From positions 124,001 through 188,000 of the forward strand of contig NZ_CP005286.1 in assembly GCF_000819445.1 (NCBI RefSeq): DNA of 64,000 nt. Direction: 5' to 3'. The notes under the pieces were generated by a model that did no database searches, was not told where the DNA came from, and saw only the letters and a program-made list of their open reading frames with translations. This document shows, piece after piece, positions 46,320 to 52,580 of the stretch. Positions within the stretch are counted from its first letter, which is position 1. Each line of letters begins with the position of its first letter. Made by a program: the position numbers and the translations under genes. The DNA is from Corynebacterium humireducens NBRC 106098 = DSM 45392 (GTDB lineage: Bacteria; Actinomycetota; Actinomycetes; Mycobacteriales; Mycobacteriaceae).

Positions 46320-48812
46320 GTGGCTAAATTACTGTTCAAGCTGGGACGCTGGTCCTTTCACCGCAAGTGGGTCGTCATCGTCCTGTGGCTGGCGGCGCTG
46401 GCCGGTGTCGCCGGCGCCGCGGTGACGTTCCAGAAGCCCTTCTCCAACGAATTCTCCATCGGCGGCACCCCGTCGATTGACGCGACCTACACCCTCGTCG
46501 AGAAGTTCCCCGAGGGCGGCAACCCCGTCAACGCCGCCGGAGTGAACGTCGTCTTCGCCGCGCCCGCGGGGGAGAGGCTGGAGGACCCGCACAACTCGGC
46601 GGCCATCGACAAGGTGGTCACCCACATCCGGGACAACCTGCCGGACCTGACCGGCACGGAACGCTTCGGCAACCCCGTGGAAGTCTCGCCCGCGCTGCAG
46701 CAGGGCGTCATCGAGATGATGACCGAGCAGGGCCTCCCCGAGGAGTCCGCGCGTGACGACGCCGAGAACCTCGCCATGCTCTCCGACGACGGCCGCATCG
46801 GCTACACCACCTTCACCATCGACGTCCCCTCGTCGATGGACGTCACCGACGAGCACCGGCGCATCGTCAACGCCGCCATGGACCTCGGCCGCGCGGAGGG
46901 TATCGAGGTGGAGGCCGGCGGCGCCGGCTTCGGTGACCCCATCGAGGTGAAGACCACCAGTGAGATCGTCGGCCTGGCCATCGCCTTCGTGGTGCTCATC
47001 GTGACGTTCGGCTCCCTCGTGGCCGCCGGTCTGCCGGTGCTCACCGCGGTCATCGGCGTGGGCATCGGCGCGCTGGTCATCATCATCGCCACCGCGTTCG
47101 TCGAGCTCAACAACATCACCCCGGTCCTGGCGGTGATGATCGGCCTGGCCGTGGGCATCGACTACGCCCTGTTCATCCTGTCGCGCTACCGCGCGGAACG
47201 GCAGCGGATGCCCGCCGACGAGGCGGCGGGCATGGCCGTGGGCACCGCCGGCTCCGCGGTCGTCTTCGCCGGCGCGACCGTCATCATCGCGCTGGCCGCC
47301 CTGACGATCGTCAACATCGAGTTCCTCACCGCCATGGGCCTGTCCGCGGCGTTCACCGTGTTCGTGGCCGTGCTCGTGGCGCTGACGTTCATCCCGGCGC
47401 TGCTCGGCGTGCTCGGCGACCGGACCTTCAAGGGGCGCGTGCCCGGCGTCGCCGGCAACCCCGTCCGCCGGGGACGGGGCGTGAGCCGCACCAGCGAGCG
47501 CCGCCGTCGCCCCACCATGGGCAACCGCTGGGTCCGCTTCGTGCGCCGCGTCCCGGGCCTCGTCATGGCGGTCGTGGTGCTCACCCTCGGCGCGCTGTCG
47601 TACCCGGCGCTCAACATGGAGCTCTCGCTCCCCTCGGACTCGACGTCCAACCTCGACACCACCCAGCGCAAGTCCGCCAACCTCCTCGCCGAGGGCTTCG
47701 GCGCGGGCATCAACGCACCGTTCCTCGTCATCGTCGACGCCGACGACGTCAACCCCGACGCCCCGGCGCTGCAGCCGCTCGTCCGGGCGCAGGAGGCGAT
47801 GGCTCCGGAGGGGGAGACGGTGGACCGTCGGGAAGCAGCGGTGACCGCCTCCTACATGTACACCGTCGGACAGCTCAAGAACGTCGGCGGCGTGAAGCAC
47901 GCCCAGCTCGTGGGCATGAACCCGGACACCAACGGCGCCCAGATCCTGGTCACCCCGTTCACCGGCCCCGACGAGCAGTACACCACCCAGGTCTCCCACG
48001 CCCTGCGCGAACAGGGCGCGCAGATCGCCGACGCCACCGGCGCCGCCATCGGCCTGACGGGCCTCACGGCCGTGCAGATGGACATCACCGAACGCCTCTC
48101 CGAGGCCATGCCGGTCTACCTCGGCATCGTCGTCGGCCTGGCGGTCTTCCTGCTGCTCGGCGTGTTCCGCTCGGTGCTGGTGCCGCTCGTCGCCGGCCTC
48201 GGCTTCCTGCTCTCGGTCGGAGCGGCCTTCGGCGTCACCGTCCTCGTGTGGCAGGAGGGCCTGTGGGACCTGGTGAACACCCCGGCGCCGCTGATCTCCT
48301 TCATGCCGATCTTCCTCATCGGCGTGACCTTCGGCCTGGCCATGGACTACCAGGTCTTCCTGGTCACCCGCATGCGCGAGCACTACATCAACCTGCGGGT
48401 GAAGTCCCACGAGAACCCCGACCCGGACGTCCCCCGCGCGGTGTCCAAGCTCGACGCCCTCGAGGAGTCCACCATCGTCGGCTTCACCCGGGGAGCCCGC
48501 GTGGTCACGGCGGCCGCGCTCATCATGATCGCCGTGTTCATCGCGTTCATCGACCAGCCGCTGCCGTTCATCCAGATCTTCGGCTTCGCCCTCGGCGTCG
48601 GCGTCTTCTTCGACGCCTTCTTCGTCCGCATGGCACTCGTGCCCGCCACGATGTTCCTCCTGGGCAACGCCACCTGGTGGATCCCCCGCTGGCTCAACCG
48701 GCTCATCCCCCGCATGGACATCGAGGGCACCGCCCTCGAGAAGGAGTGGGAGGCCCGACACGCGGCCGAACAGCTGCACCGCAAGGAAATGGAGAAGCAT
48801 GAGCAGGTCTGA
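46320..48812 (+). CDS. MMPL family RND-type transporter
   Basis: An 830-residue membrane protein with the MMPL layout: one helix, a periplasmic domain (about 35-215), five helices, a middle cytoplasmic linker (about 365-405), then a second helix/domain/helix half. The proton-relay region GLAVGIDYALFILSRYR is near residue 280 and its partner FGLAMDYQVFLVTRMREH near 675. It exports lipids or hydrophobic compounds; it is smaller than the trehalose-mycolate exporters. The GTG start is within 4 bases of the annotated overlap-free upstream region, and the stop overlaps tgt by 14 bases. Confidence 0.9.
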   Translation: MAKLLFKLGRWSFHRKWVVIVLWLAALAGVAGAAVTFQKPFSNEFSIGGTPSIDATYTLVEKFPEGGNPVNAAGVNVVFAAPAGERLEDPHNSAAIDKVVTHIRDNLPDLTGTERFGNPVEVSPALQQGVIEMMTEQGLPEESARDDAENLAMLSDDGRIGYTTFTIDVPSSMDVTDEHRRIVNAAMDLGRAEGIEVEAGGAGFGDPIEVKTTSEIVGLAIAFVVLIVTFGSLVAAGLPVLTAVIGVGIGALVIIIATAFVELNNITPVLAVMIGLAVGIDYALFILSRYRAERQRMPADEAAGMAVGTAGSAVVFAGATVIIALAALTIVNIEFLTAMGLSAAFTVFVAVLVALTFIPALLGVLGDRTFKGRVPGVAGNPVRRGRGVSRTSERRRRPTMGNRWVRFVRRVPGLVMAVVVLTLGALSYPALNMELSLPSDSTSNLDTTQRKSANLLAEGFGAGINAPFLVIVDADDVNPDAPALQPLVRAQEAMAPEGETVDRREAAVTASYMYTVGQLKNVGGVKHAQLVGMNPDTNGAQILVTPFTGPDEQYTTQVSHALREQGAQIADATGAAIGLTGLTAVQMDITERLSEAMPVYLGIVVGLAVFLLLGVFRSVLVPLVAGLGFLLSVGAAFGVTVLVWQEGLWDLVNTPAPLISFMPIFLIGVTFGLAMDYQVFLVTRMREHYINLRVKSHENPDPDVPRAVSKLDALEESTIVGFTRGARVVTAAALIMIAVFIAFIDQPLPFIQIFGFALGVGVFFDAFFVRMALVPATMFLLGNATWWIPRWLNRLIPRMDIEGTALEKEWEARHAAEQLHRKEMEKHEQV

Positions 48813-50049
48813 CCTGTCGTTCACCCTCGGCACCGAACTGGAGTCCGCGCCCGGCCGCCACGGCCGCACCGGCACGATCCACACCCCGCACGGTGACATC
48901 CGGACCCCCGCGTTCATCCCCGTCGCCACCAAGGCGACCGTGAAGACCCTCACCCCCGAGCAGATCGAGCAGACCGGCGCGCAGGCGATCCTCTCCAACG
49001 CGTACCACCTGTACCTGCAGCCCGGCGCCGACATCGTCGACGAGGCCGGCGGCGTCGGCCGTTTCGAGAACTGGTCCGGCCCGACCTACACCGACTCCGG
49101 CGGCTTCCAGGTGATGAGCCAGGGTTCCGGCTACCAGAAGGTCATCTCCATGGACTCCTCCGACGCCGCGAACGGGCACCTCCCGGCGAAGAAGAACATG
49201 GCGAAGGTCGACGAGGACGGGGTGAACTTCACCAGCTTCATCGACGGCTCCCGGCACCGCTTCACCCCTGAGGTGAGCATGCAGATCCAGCACCAGCTGG
49301 GCGCGGACATCATCTTCGCCTTCGACGAGCTGACCACCCTCATGGACACCCGCGCCTACCAGGAGGCCTCCGTCGACCGCACCCACCGCTGGGCGCAGCG
49401 CTGCCTCGACGAGCACGACCGCCTCACCCGGGAACGCGCCGACAAGCCCCTCCAGTCCCTCTGGGGCGTCGTGCAGGGCGCACAGTACGAGGATCTGCGC
49501 CGCCAGGCCACCCGCGGCCTCGTGCAGCTTTCCGACGCCGCCGTGGACGCCGGCCGCCGCGGATTCGGCGGCTACGGCATCGGTGGGGCCCTGGAGAAGG
49601 AGAACCTCGGCACGATCGTCGGCTGGGTCTGCGACGAACTGCCCCGCGACAAGCCCCGCCACCTGCTGGGCATCTCCGAGCCGGACGACATGTTCACCGC
49701 CATCGAGGCGGGCGCCGACACCTTCGACTGCGTCGCCCCCACGCGCCTGGCCCGCCGCGGCGGCGTCTACACCCTCGACGGCCGGATGAACCTGGAGGGG
49801 GCGCGCTTCAAGCGGGACTTCCGCGGCATCGACGAGGAGTTCGGCGGCTACGTCTCCGAGAACTACTCGCGCGCCTACATCCGTCACCTGTTCAAGGCGA
49901 ACGAGTTCCTCGGCATGACGTTGTGCACGATCCACAACCTGCAGTTCATGATCCGCCTGGTGGACAACATCCGCGACTCCATCGAGGGTGGCTACTTCGA
50001 GGAGTACCGCGCCGAGTTCATGGGCCGGTACTACGCTAACCGGCGCTGA
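48799..50049 (+). CDS. tgt: tRNA-guanine/queuine transglycosylase, atypical (zinc ligands lost)
   Basis: A 416-residue Tgt. The general catalytic Asp is in YTDSGGFQVMS near residue 95, the nucleophile Asp in FDCVAPTRLARRGG near 312. In the normal enzyme a C-x-C-x-x-C motif before NYSRAY and a later His bind zinc. Here the segment reads DEEFGGYVSENYSRAY: Phe348, Gly350 and Ser353 replace the three cysteines, and only His379 (CTIHN) remains. An extra segment near residues 115-135 (ANGHLPAKKNMAKVDEDG) is also unusual. The nearby transporter and GluQ genes argue that it works in queuosine salvage. Confidence 0.88.
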   Translation: MSRSDLSFTLGTELESAPGRHGRTGTIHTPHGDIRTPAFIPVATKATVKTLTPEQIEQTGAQAILSNAYHLYLQPGADIVDEAGGVGRFENWSGPTYTDSGGFQVMSQGSGYQKVISMDSSDAANGHLPAKKNMAKVDEDGVNFTSFIDGSRHRFTPEVSMQIQHQLGADIIFAFDELTTLMDTRAYQEASVDRTHRWAQRCLDEHDRLTRERADKPLQSLWGVVQGAQYEDLRRQATRGLVQLSDAAVDAGRRGFGGYGIGGALEKENLGTIVGWVCDELPRDKPRHLLGISEPDDMFTAIEAGADTFDCVAPTRLARRGGVYTLDGRMNLEGARFKRDFRGIDEEFGGYVSENYSRAYIRHLFKANEFLGMTLCTIHNLQFMIRLVDNIRDSIEGGYFEEYRAEFMGRYYANRR

Positions 50050-50050
50050 A

Positions 50051-50125
50051 CTGCATGTTTGATATTTGCAAACAGAATGCATCGCAGAACGCGCTGTTTG
50101 ATTCTGTTTGCAATGTTGTTTGATT
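50051..50125. repeat. 75-bp direct repeat, left copy
   Basis: It begins 1 base after the tgt stop and matches 51808-51882 at 73 of 75 positions in the same orientation. It contains TGTTTG and its complement several times (for example ATGTTTGATATTTGCAAACA) and is much more AT-rich than the flanks. Its last bases include the stop codon of the gene it helps to bracket. Confidence 0.92.
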
Positions 50126-51794
50126 AGGACGGTCGGACGTAGCGCGTGCCTCGGCCACGCCCCTCCATCACGAGCTCGCCGGTGTCGACGAGCTCCCGTA
50201 GAAAACGGTAGGCCTGCTGGCCACTGATTCCGCAGGTGTCCGCTGCCTGCGTGCGGTTGATCGAGCCGAAATCATCAACGTATGCCAGGAGGAGCTGGGC
50301 GGCCCGTGTCTCGTCGACCTTGGTGGAGCGGACGAAGTCTCCTCGGCGGCCGACGATGTCATGGAATACAGGGCCGAGGCGGTACTGGTTGCCGCGGGCA
50401 CCGGGGATGATCGCCACCAGGCCGAAGTCGGCGAGTTCCGTCAGTTCACGGCTGATACGCTGTGGCGATTCGGACAGTCGTTCGGCCAGGCCGCTGGCGT
50501 GTGACGGGCCGTCGTTTCGAAGGGAGCGGATCAGGCGCAGGGAACGAACTGACAGCTCGGGGTGGGACTGCGTCCAGCGGGCGGTGAAGGCGGCGAATTC
50601 GCGGTCAGCGACGGTCACAGGTAGTCCGACGGACACGATTTCATCGGTGGTGCCGTGGAAGTCCGGCTCCATGTGGCCGCTGGTCAACATGGACTCGAAC
50701 ATGATCTTCACGCCACGTCCGCTGCGCTCGACCAGTCCAGCGCGTTTGAAGGCATCAGCTAGTGCGGGACTGCGGGGTGTCGATGCGTCGAAAATTGTGT
50801 CCAGGGTGACCGGCCGGGGAAGACCGCCGGGACTGGTCACACGGAACTCATCGTCGTCGAGCCTGATCTGGATGGGTCCAAGCATCGTGTAGTCGCGGTG
50901 AACGAGTGCATTGGCGACAGCTTCACGGCTGGCACGTTCGGGCAGGTTGACCAGTCCGATGCGCAGGATTCCCACAGTGATCTCGTCCTCATGGCGATAG
51001 GGCTCGATCCGGTCGGCAATCTCCTCCATGACCTGGAACAGGGGCCCGCGGGTGCGGAAGTTCACCTTCACGGCAGTACCCGCGAAGATTTGCAGAAGCA
51101 CCTCGTGATTGGGAATCCACCGGGCCAACGCCGGGAGGGTGCCGAAGAGCAGGACGGCACCCAGTTTCACCGGGTCAGCTGAATCATCATAGAGTCCCAT
51201 TCCCCGGAGTATTTCCTCGTCGTCGAGCTGAGACAGTGTCTTGTCTCCCGGGCCGGCAGCGATGAGTTTGCGAAGACGGTTGAACTCGGACGGGTCAAGG
51301 TCATCGAGGGTCGCGCCGATCGCGGGGAGTGTGGCCCAGTCCCTGGCATGGGCGGTGTGGTACTGGCTGAAGAGGTAGGCGGGGTCCATCGCAAGGCACT
51401 GGGGGTCACCCGTCGCGCGTAGTACGCGTCGCTGGTAGACGCCGTGTTGGGTGGCGATCGGCGTGGTGGAACGGGGCACCTCGATCACCAGTATCTCAAC
51501 ACCGTCAGTGTTGATCAGGTGGGCGACGGTGGCGAGTGAGGGTCGGGTGTTGTGCTGGATAAGCGACTCTATCGCCCGTGGATCGGTGCCTGTCTTGTGC
51601 CACGGGTATGAGCCGGATACGGTCCCGTCGTTTTCGACCCCGATGAAAATATGGCCACCCTGGCCGTTGGCCATGCAGGCCACCGCTTCGACCAGCTTGC
51701 GGTCGTTGAGGTCCTGGGAAGAGCGGCGTCGTTTGAATTCAACTGTGAGGGTTTCGCCGCCGGAAATGATTCTCAACGCCGTGTCAGCATCCAT
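50124..51794 (-). CDS. AlbA_2/Schlafen-type ATP-binding regulator
   Basis: A 556-residue protein. The AlbA_2 (Schlafen-like) domain is residues 1-140 (ETLTVEFKRRRSS, then VEAVACMANGQGGHIFIGV). A GHKL-like HATPase_c_4 region follows at about 290-400 (ASREAVANALVHRDY, then GRGVKIMFES). Two winged-helix segments are near 435-475 and 500-550 (INRTQAADTCGISGQQAYRFLRELV). Similar proteins are called divergent AAA or ATP-dependent helicase-like regulators, and some lie in defence islands. The whole gene sits exactly between 75-bp direct repeats. Its codon use is less GC-rich than that of its neighbours. Confidence 0.85.
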   Translation of the reverse strand: MDADTALRIISGGETLTVEFKRRRSSQDLNDRKLVEAVACMANGQGGHIFIGVENDGTVSGSYPWHKTGTDPRAIESLIQHNTRPSLATVAHLINTDGVEILVIEVPRSTTPIATQHGVYQRRVLRATGDPQCLAMDPAYLFSQYHTAHARDWATLPAIGATLDDLDPSEFNRLRKLIAAGPGDKTLSQLDDEEILRGMGLYDDSADPVKLGAVLLFGTLPALARWIPNHEVLLQIFAGTAVKVNFRTRGPLFQVMEEIADRIEPYRHEDEITVGILRIGLVNLPERASREAVANALVHRDYTMLGPIQIRLDDDEFRVTSPGGLPRPVTLDTIFDASTPRSPALADAFKRAGLVERSGRGVKIMFESMLTSGHMEPDFHGTTDEIVSVGLPVTVADREFAAFTARWTQSHPELSVRSLRLIRSLRNDGPSHASGLAERLSESPQRISRELTELADFGLVAIIPGARGNQYRLGPVFHDIVGRRGDFVRSTKVDETRAAQLLLAYVDDFGSINRTQAADTCGISGQQAYRFLRELVDTGELVMEGRGRGTRYVRPS

Positions 51795-51807
51795 GGGCCC
51801 ATTCTAC

Positions 51808-51882
51808 CTGCATGTTTGATATTTGCAAACAGGATGCATCGCAGAACGCGTTGTTTGATTCTGTTTGCAATGTTGTTTGATT
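51808..51882. repeat. 75-bp direct repeat, right copy
   Basis: The second copy, 13 bases upstream of the ATPase gene start and 11 bases after the end of the transporter gene. It holds the promoter side of the ATPase gene, so its TGTTTG motifs could be operator sites. Differs from the left copy at two positions. Confidence 0.92.
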
Positions 51883-51893
51883 GGGGCGCGTCG

Positions 51894-52580
51894 CTAAGAC
51901 GCGTAGCCCTCGCGACGCTTCACCCACCCGATGACTGCGTACGTGACCGGCAGCAGGAGCACCTCGATGAGGGTCTTCCACAGGAAGCCGACGATGACGT
52001 AGTTGACCAGGTCCCCGCCCGTCGTGATGCCGATGACCGGCGCCGCGATGACGCAGAACAGCAGGGTGTCGCCGAACTCGCCGACGACGGTCGAGCCGAT
52101 GAGGCGCGCCCACAGGGACTTCTCGCCGGTGCGCTGCTTGATCTTCACCAGCACCCAGGAGTTGAGGAGCTGGCCGACGACGTAGCCGGCCAGTGACGCC
52201 ACGACGATCTGCGGTACCAGGCCGAGGACGTGGGCGAATTCGGGCTGGGATTCGTAGAAGTCGGCGGCGGGCAGCCAGATCGCCACGTAGAAGGAGACGA
52301 CGGCCAGCAGGGTCACCGCGAAGCCGGTGAAGATGGCGCGGCGGGCGGCCTTGAATCCGTAGCACTCGGCGAGGACGTCGCCCAGGACGTAGGCCAGCGG
52401 GAAGAGGAAGAAGGCGCCGTCGGTGATGAGGGGGCCGATGGTTACGCCCTTCGTCGCCAGAATGTTGGAGATGAGGAACACCGCGACGAAGAACGCCACG
52501 ATGACGGGGTACAGGGTGGGCTGGAGGGGGATGAACCGGGCAGTCATCCCCTGCCCAGGTGCGGGATCAGGAGTGTTCAC
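51894..52580 (-). CDS. yhhQ: Queuosine precursor transporter (YhhQ/VUT family)
   Basis: A 228-residue protein with six hydrophobic segments and the family motifs FLISNILATKG near residue 34, FPLAYVLGDVLAECYG near 60 and STVVGEFGDTLLF near 164. In E. coli this family imports preQ0/preQ1 or queuine. The ATG at 52580 gives a short cytoplasmic N terminus; an internal ATG at residue 12 is also possible. It is divergent from gluQ with only 34 bases between starts. Confidence 0.9.
   Translation of the reverse strand: MNTPDPAPGQGMTARFIPLQPTLYPVIVAFFVAVFLISNILATKGVTIGPLITDGAFFLFPLAYVLGDVLAECYGFKAARRAIFTGFAVTLLAVVSFYVAIWLPAADFYESQPEFAHVLGLVPQIVVASLAGYVVGQLLNSWVLVKIKQRTGEKSLWARLIGSTVVGEFGDTLLFCVIAAPVIGITTGGDLVNYVIVGFLWKTLIEVLLLPVTYAVIGWVKRREGYAS

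Follow-up and report, generated by a model that had tools for sequence, protein, structure and literature searches.

What is a single gene doing between two nearly identical direct repeats in the gap between tgt and yhhQ of Corynebacterium humireducens, and can it leave? The question comes from an earlier note on the window, i.e., the whole 64,000-nucleotide stretch of this genome analysed here, in which the gene was proposed to be a mobile cassette bracketed by 75-bp direct repeats. The repeat pair is as described there: the two copies are identical at 73 of 75 positions with a spacing of 1757, and their ungapped match extends to 81 nt at 95% identity. The left copy indeed begins 1 base past the end of tgt and the right copy lies 11 bases from yhhQ, while the stop codon of the cassette gene overlaps the left copy at its edge (Table 1). 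The flanking-repeat score of the gene is 147, compared to a 99th percentile of 34.7 for 314 control ORFs, and a search of the same genome (2.68 Mb, one contig) returned these two full copies of the repeat and no third one.

Table 1. The cassette between tgt and yhhQ and its flanks (positions in the window)
Feature	Position	Strand	Basis
tgt (PF01702), left flank	48799..50049	+	ORF and Pfam
Left direct repeat, downstream of the gene	50051..50125	- (gene orientation)	repeat search
Inverted iteron pair TTGCAAACAGAAT / ATTCTGTTTGCAA, left copy, 13 nt, 100% complementary	50066..50113	.	
Single cassette gene, SLFN_AlbA_2 + HATPase_c_4 + winged-helix protein, 556 aa	50124..51794	-	ORF, Pfam, AlphaFold model, structural match
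Promoter-like site: TTTGCA 51829-51824, 17 nt, TAGAAT 51806-51801, 6 nt, ATG	51801..51829	-	consensus match only
Right direct repeat, upstream of the gene, includes -35-like hexamer	51808..51882	-	repeat search and consensus match
Inverted iteron pair, right copy, 13 nt, 92% complementary	51823..51870	.	
yhhQ-type transporter (PF02592), right flank	51894..52580	-	ORF and Pfam

The right copy had also been called the promoter region of the gene, and this stands in part. By consensus match only, a -35-like hexamer lies inside the repeat, but the -10-like TAGAAT lies just outside it, so that no such element adjoins the left copy. The promoter-like site is present in two overlapping forms, compared to a mean of 0.4 in shuffles; since GGGCCC-ATG directly follows the -10-like element, a start there would, on the same consensus match only, be leaderless. 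As a single DNA strand, the right copy folds with a z of -2.37.

That one Schlafen/AlbA_2-type ATPase gene occupies the space between the repeats is confirmed by its SLFN_AlbA_2 (64.6 bits, cut-off 25.3) and HATPase_c_4 (54.1 bits, cut-off 26) domains, both above the Pfam cut-offs; an AlkZ-like Pfam match is slightly above its cut-off and several winged-helix matches fall below theirs. The protein aligns to DIP2311 (3LMM) across residues 33-552 with an E of 5.9e-26. An AlphaFold model made with 42 sequences has a mean pLDDT of 89 and a pTM of 0.69, and a Foldseek search with this predicted structure places 3LMM at the top (E 4e-30, though the whole-chain TM is only 0.47), followed by Schlafen N-terminal domains (E about 1e-4). 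DIP2311, which the window protein resembles over nearly the whole of its length, is itself a structure of unknown function, and the portion of PMC8780604 that mentions 3LMM terms it a target of unknown function. The motif G-E14-x4-E19-F-K21 is conserved in at least 90% of the 42 homologues, with Schlafen-like spacing. Reading from this motif, we take E14, E19 and K21 to be the counterparts of the Schlafen active-site residues; across 22 diverse members from the genus, K21 never changes and E14 hardly does, while E19 varies (several members have aspartate, a few isoleucine or another residue). Among the structural matches are entries whose titles refer to the mutants E209A and E211A, of SLFN11 and SLFN14. 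With PADLOC, the window protein matched models of the Argonaute type and of CasR only in part (best E 5.9e-11). Proteins of the family are often annotated as RecG-related or as DNA/RNA-binding domain proteins. By analogy with the Schlafen-type fold and the GHKL-like ATPase domain, the use of the protein would most likely be a conflict or defence function that is costly and often lost. The cassette was said to be devoid of a recombinase gene, and its single gene has no recombinase-family match in Pfam and NCBIfam scans; no transposase was found in the same scans at E 0.001, and in the Pfam scan the gene is neither a reverse transcriptase nor an integrase.

The earlier note expected some relatives to have one repeat copy and no gene between tgt and yhhQ. 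We compared 30 tgt loci over 1.5 kb past tgt each (one, L083, stops at tgt, and yhhQ is out of reach in several), and a match to the window protein is encoded at two of them, the window's own and that of G025. In the nearest relative, G018, whose tgt and yhhQ are 93% and 88% identical, the gap is about 60 bp long and contains a hairpin (recognised by eye), with neither repeat nor gene. The same gap in G025 is occupied by another family member, 23% identical to the window protein, which lies on the opposite strand and is flanked by its own 97-bp repeats with an iteron type unlike that of the window. The cassette is indeed missing from this gap in relatives, but a relative with a bare repeat was not found at tgt-yhhQ among these loci.

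How common is this arrangement elsewhere? The window protein was searched across 242 Corynebacterium genomes, with up to five candidates scored per genome, and relatives were found in 156 of them. We took 100 stretches, roughly the better-scoring matches, with G025 included for its site; a family ORF is present in 99 of these, and 104 ORFs were scored, one at a stretch end being left out because of too little flank. A flanking direct repeat with a score of at least 50 is present at 50 of the 104 family genes vs. 3 of the 314 control ORFs from the same stretches. Because some of the genomes are close to each other (L115 and L116 come from near-identical ones), the 50 cassettes are not all independent; they represent 37 sites when two are joined only on the basis of both flanks, or 16 when any shared flank suffices. 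The three control ORFs with strong flanking repeats (L108:6666-7268, L133:7697-8887 and L157:744-1598) are possibly local gene duplications.

The remaining 54 of the 104 family genes lack a repeat pair at the threshold, and 14 repeat-less ones (L091-L104) are found at one common locus beside an N-acetylmuramoyl-L-alanine amidase gene (the neighbour was scanned in L091), possibly representing a settled, non-mobile branch. The repeats are thus not required for persistence of the protein. Around leuS, the leucyl-tRNA synthetase gene (Pfam-checked in L108 only), the species differ in which family gene or cassette they carry, and both orientations occur; this neighbourhood holds many such genes (L088-L090, L108, L109, L126, L131, L148, L154, L157, L165 and L419), and is an insertion hot spot. 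Two different repeat-bounded family genes, L115 and L170, lie a few kilobases apart in one genome, and in G141, G228, G210 and G258 two same-strand repeat copies are a few hundred bases apart, some of them upstream of a family gene, rather than one copy flanking each end.

Across the 50 pairs the repeats have a median length of 110 nt and a median identity of 89%, and the whole element measures about 1985 nt. The downstream copy, 48-171 nt long, starts with a median offset of 0 from the stop codon; its upstream counterpart stops a median of 13 nt 5' of the annotated start, although start codons were assigned mechanically and some upstream-copy ends are thus located within the ORF. Each repeat is built as an array of short iterons, first in one orientation and then inverted; examples are AAACAACTC, AAAGATAT, CTAATCT, ACTCGAAA and ATTCAATCA. 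In the two repeat alignments inspected by eye, the middle often carries a TGA.CTGC-like word and many ends are near CCTGGGG or CAGG. Six repeats folded as single DNA strands are each more stable than the shuffle mean (z from -1.9 to -5.8). Judging by the sequences, iteron type tracks the protein tree rather than the site: the 12 types, which we defined with a script and, for 15 loci, by eye, need 11 changes, the minimum, on a quick protein tree that has some long branches, with 6 of the 12 types being single-cassette. Because iteron type goes with the protein, because the same gap carries different repeats in G025, and because some empty sites lack a repeat, we conclude that the repeats are integral to the element.

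If the two copies recombined, a single repeat without a gene should be left behind, and such sites exist. Sequence-only models of two repeat types, R1 and R2, were run on the 242 genomes at E of at most 1e-4; R1 matched 19 and R2, under stricter filters, at least 62. Forty stretches were taken, mostly because their repeat match was unpaired or new, and by the family profile 26 of them contain no family ORF. A single repeat is present in 17 of these 26, 14 of them at E below 1e-8 and three (L418, L444 and L454) weaker. In five others the repeat lies close to a contig end, which makes them unjudgeable (L420, L423, L430, L442 and L453), three contain weak or partial repeat matches (L417, L446 and L452), and one, L419, contains a double repeat with the 3' end of the gene alone remaining between the copies. 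With G101 and G037 added, single bare repeats number 19. When profiles of the same two alignments were applied to 2.84 Mb of reversed sequence, the lowest E was 0.11. The one-repeat, gene-less state that the earlier note predicted is therefore found in relatives, genus-wide and for two repeat types other than the window's own, so that the prediction holds for the family. Decayed forms are present too: in the repeat-bounded L435:3493-5277 the family gene is split by a two-ORF IS3-type element (identified by eye) and part of it is recognisable, and gene remnants are found at L415 and L434.

Three sites show the presence and absence of the unit. At the L113 site, repeat-gene-repeat is found in G171 and G163, one repeat without a family ORF in G101 and G037, and neither in G173. 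The left flank of G101 and G037 is common to this site and their right flank is as in G163; an extra segment of about 1.9 kb further rightward in G171 and G173 indicates that the L113 region is variable in other ways too. No target duplication was seen by eye at the G171/G173 junction. At the L159 site, G173 and G149 lack both repeat and family ORF, and the difference between G150 and G173, about 2.36 kb, exceeds the cassette, roughly 270 and 150 bp of additional DNA lying beyond the repeats. The outer neighbours of the L105 cassette lie within 400 bp of each other, with no cassette, at 28 of 29 other loci, one neighbour being matched at the 29th; an adjoining 279-aa ORF is also missing in the cassette-less loci.

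A bare repeat may be a scar, but it could also be a pre-insertion site. We compared the flanks of 23 stretches with a bare or double repeat; among them are L417, whose repeat is partial, the contig-end L442, and L443, where a family fragment lies 2 kb off. Thirteen have both flanks, in the same orientation, in common with a gene-bearing site in another species. Twelve of the 23 (L341, L342, L416, L417, L419, L421, L422, L424, L426, L431, L433 and L436) match a repeat-bounded cassette site, as recombination between the repeats would give; L422 matches only weakly (76% over 854 and 158 nt), and the flanks of L438 match genes without a repeat pair. For the other 10 of the 23, no site compared matches both flanks. 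In the best pairs, flank identities are 96.7 and 91.2% over about 1.8 kb per side for G024 (bare) and G059 (full), 92.5 and 85.3% for G237 (bare) and G265 (full), and 85.6 and 92.2% for G182 and G224. Base-level alignments of four pairs read flank-repeat-flank vs. flank-repeat-gene-repeat-flank. In a local unrooted tree, the bare G237 adjoins the full G265, with the full G054 beyond, a position that speaks for loss provided that the tree is rooted on the far side. Loss and gain are both possible for the sites of L145 and L113, where the local trees are likewise unrooted.

Recombination between the copies might also homogenise them. At two shared sites, copies are more alike within a locus than between loci (0.96 and 0.94 within L166 and L173 vs. 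0.78 between them; 0.96 and 0.95 within L089 and L090 vs. 0.79-0.84 between them). Copies at L158, L159 and L162 are 0.82-0.85 alike within and 0.96-1.00 between species, and L106/L107 and L114/L115/L116 display no within-locus excess of likeness. Since the effect is seen at two shared sites and not at three others, homogenisation is episodic at best.

What, then, is the cassette? From the comparison of genomes, we think it probable that it belongs to a widespread family and is a self-contained one-gene element of about 2 kb with the structure repeat-gene-repeat, to which the repeat belongs and whose copies can recombine, leaving a bare repeat. With this layout recurring in relatives, some of which have one bare repeat, the family appears to be one of removable one-gene elements that has gone unrecognised. 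The encoded winged-helix protein would recognise the iteron array, which would also be an operator over the gene's own promoter; a role of the repeats as operators is plausible, given that iteron type tracks the protein and that a -35-like hexamer is within the repeat. The comparison supports recombination between the upstream and downstream copies over evolutionary time, with loss of the gene, a bare repeat as the remainder and, at some sites, two copies that stay alike. Excision through repeat recombination is well supported for the family and presumed for tgt-yhhQ, and ordinary homologous recombination would be enough for it, as in solo LTRs. The element occupies many sites, and a recent arrival was seen at none of them: no two repeat-bounded proteins more than 70% identical were found at clearly unrelated sites.

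An alternative is that the element is actively mobile. The encoded protein would bind the iteron repeats, repress its own synthesis, cut and join the terminal repeats to excise a circle with one repeat, and insert this circle at new sites or at bare repeats, which would be both scars and landing sites. The 16 to 37 distinct sites among the 50 cassettes and the absence of the cassette from gaps that are otherwise conserved agree with this, as does the Schlafen-like motif, with the presumed role of its residues; furthermore, since the stop codon abuts the repeat, the circle would form a complete transcription unit. On the other hand, the protein matches no recombinase family, E19 varies, the G171/G173 junction displays no duplication to the eye and no recent transposition is seen, while homologous recombination suffices for excision. 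We therefore regard such a minimal class of mobile element as unlikely, though worth keeping in mind.

It is comparably doubtful that the repeats are just a double operator, duplicated downstream of the gene perhaps for DNA looping, of an autoregulator that has never moved as a unit and whose deletions are incidental. The promoter-like -35 in the upstream copy, the winged-helix stretches of the protein and the tracking of the protein by iteron type all speak for this reading. However, what varies between genomes at many sites is the whole unit including its two copies, and from looping alone one would not expect the second copy to be 48-171 nt long and located at the stop codon.

An insertion with a long target duplication, in which the repeat would be duplicated target DNA, is very improbable, although long direct repeats around one conflict-type gene and single bare repeats at sites that bear the gene elsewhere are what it would produce. 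We rejected it because some empty sites lack the repeat (G018 at tgt-yhhQ; G173 and G149) and because the repeats go with the gene, iteron type tracking the protein across sites and the same gap in G025 holding another gene with other repeats. Chance or an assembly artefact has a negligible probability: nothing was found in its favour, and the score of the window gene, the control ORFs and the recurrence of this layout, built from different sequences, across many genomes contradict it.

The self-contained element that we favour resembles several known systems in part. Restriction-modification genes have been proposed to insert with long target duplications, and the likeness is in one conflict-type module between long direct repeats with no recombinase; the difference is that the repeat of the cassette belongs to the element and its empty sites can be repeat-less. 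In the formation of solo LTRs, terminal direct repeats recombine, the interior is deleted and one repeat remains, and single repeats of our family are similarly found at sites of relatives that elsewhere carry the full element. Unlike LTR retroelements, the cassette encodes no reverse transcriptase but one regulator-like gene, and its repeats are iteron arrays. Integron cassettes consist of a single gene with an attC site whose inverted halves are able to fold; the single gene, the similar length of the repeats and the foldable inverted halves are shared, whereas here there is no integrase in the cassette and no array, and the cassette has a promoter-like site of its own and a repeat on both sides. 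Plasmid iteron-Rep modules have multiple short iterons upstream of a gene for a winged-helix protein, as the cassette does, but the cassette protein has Schlafen and GHKL-type domains. Compared to insertion sequences and DDE transposons, the cassette lacks a transposase, and its terminal copies are direct, each with internal inverted iterons. Among the open-licence publications listed as matches, none links SLFN_AlbA_2/HATPase_c_4 genes to flanking repeats in its title or the start of its abstract.

Beyond the genus, the HATPase_c_4 family was found in 34 of 198 genomes of the phylum, the window's own included, and 6 of 40 family ORFs outside Corynebacterium exceed the repeat threshold, as do none of the 80 controls. 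Of these, L456, L471 and L473 are convincing examples of the same architecture; L459, with a short palindrome, and L480 and L494, whose repeats are far from the gene, were set aside. A genome of another class, G423, has twelve HATPase_c_4 genes, one of which is over the repeat threshold with a short palindromic repeat. A flanking repeat was not found for relatives from Actinotalea and Bacteroidales. Plasmid and phage records contain distant relatives only, all below 60% identity, and no close copy of L166 was found in viral contigs.

Proteins with these domains are common, are usually called RecG-like or DNA-binding, and have no known job. That about half of the examined members in the genus are located in repeat-bounded, removable elements with protein-specific iterons provides a testable handle on them: a binding site can be predicted for every protein, as can the products of excision, and full, bare-repeat and empty sites form natural sets for comparison. 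If it is true that the protein drives its own movement, these cassettes would be a new kind of mobile element.
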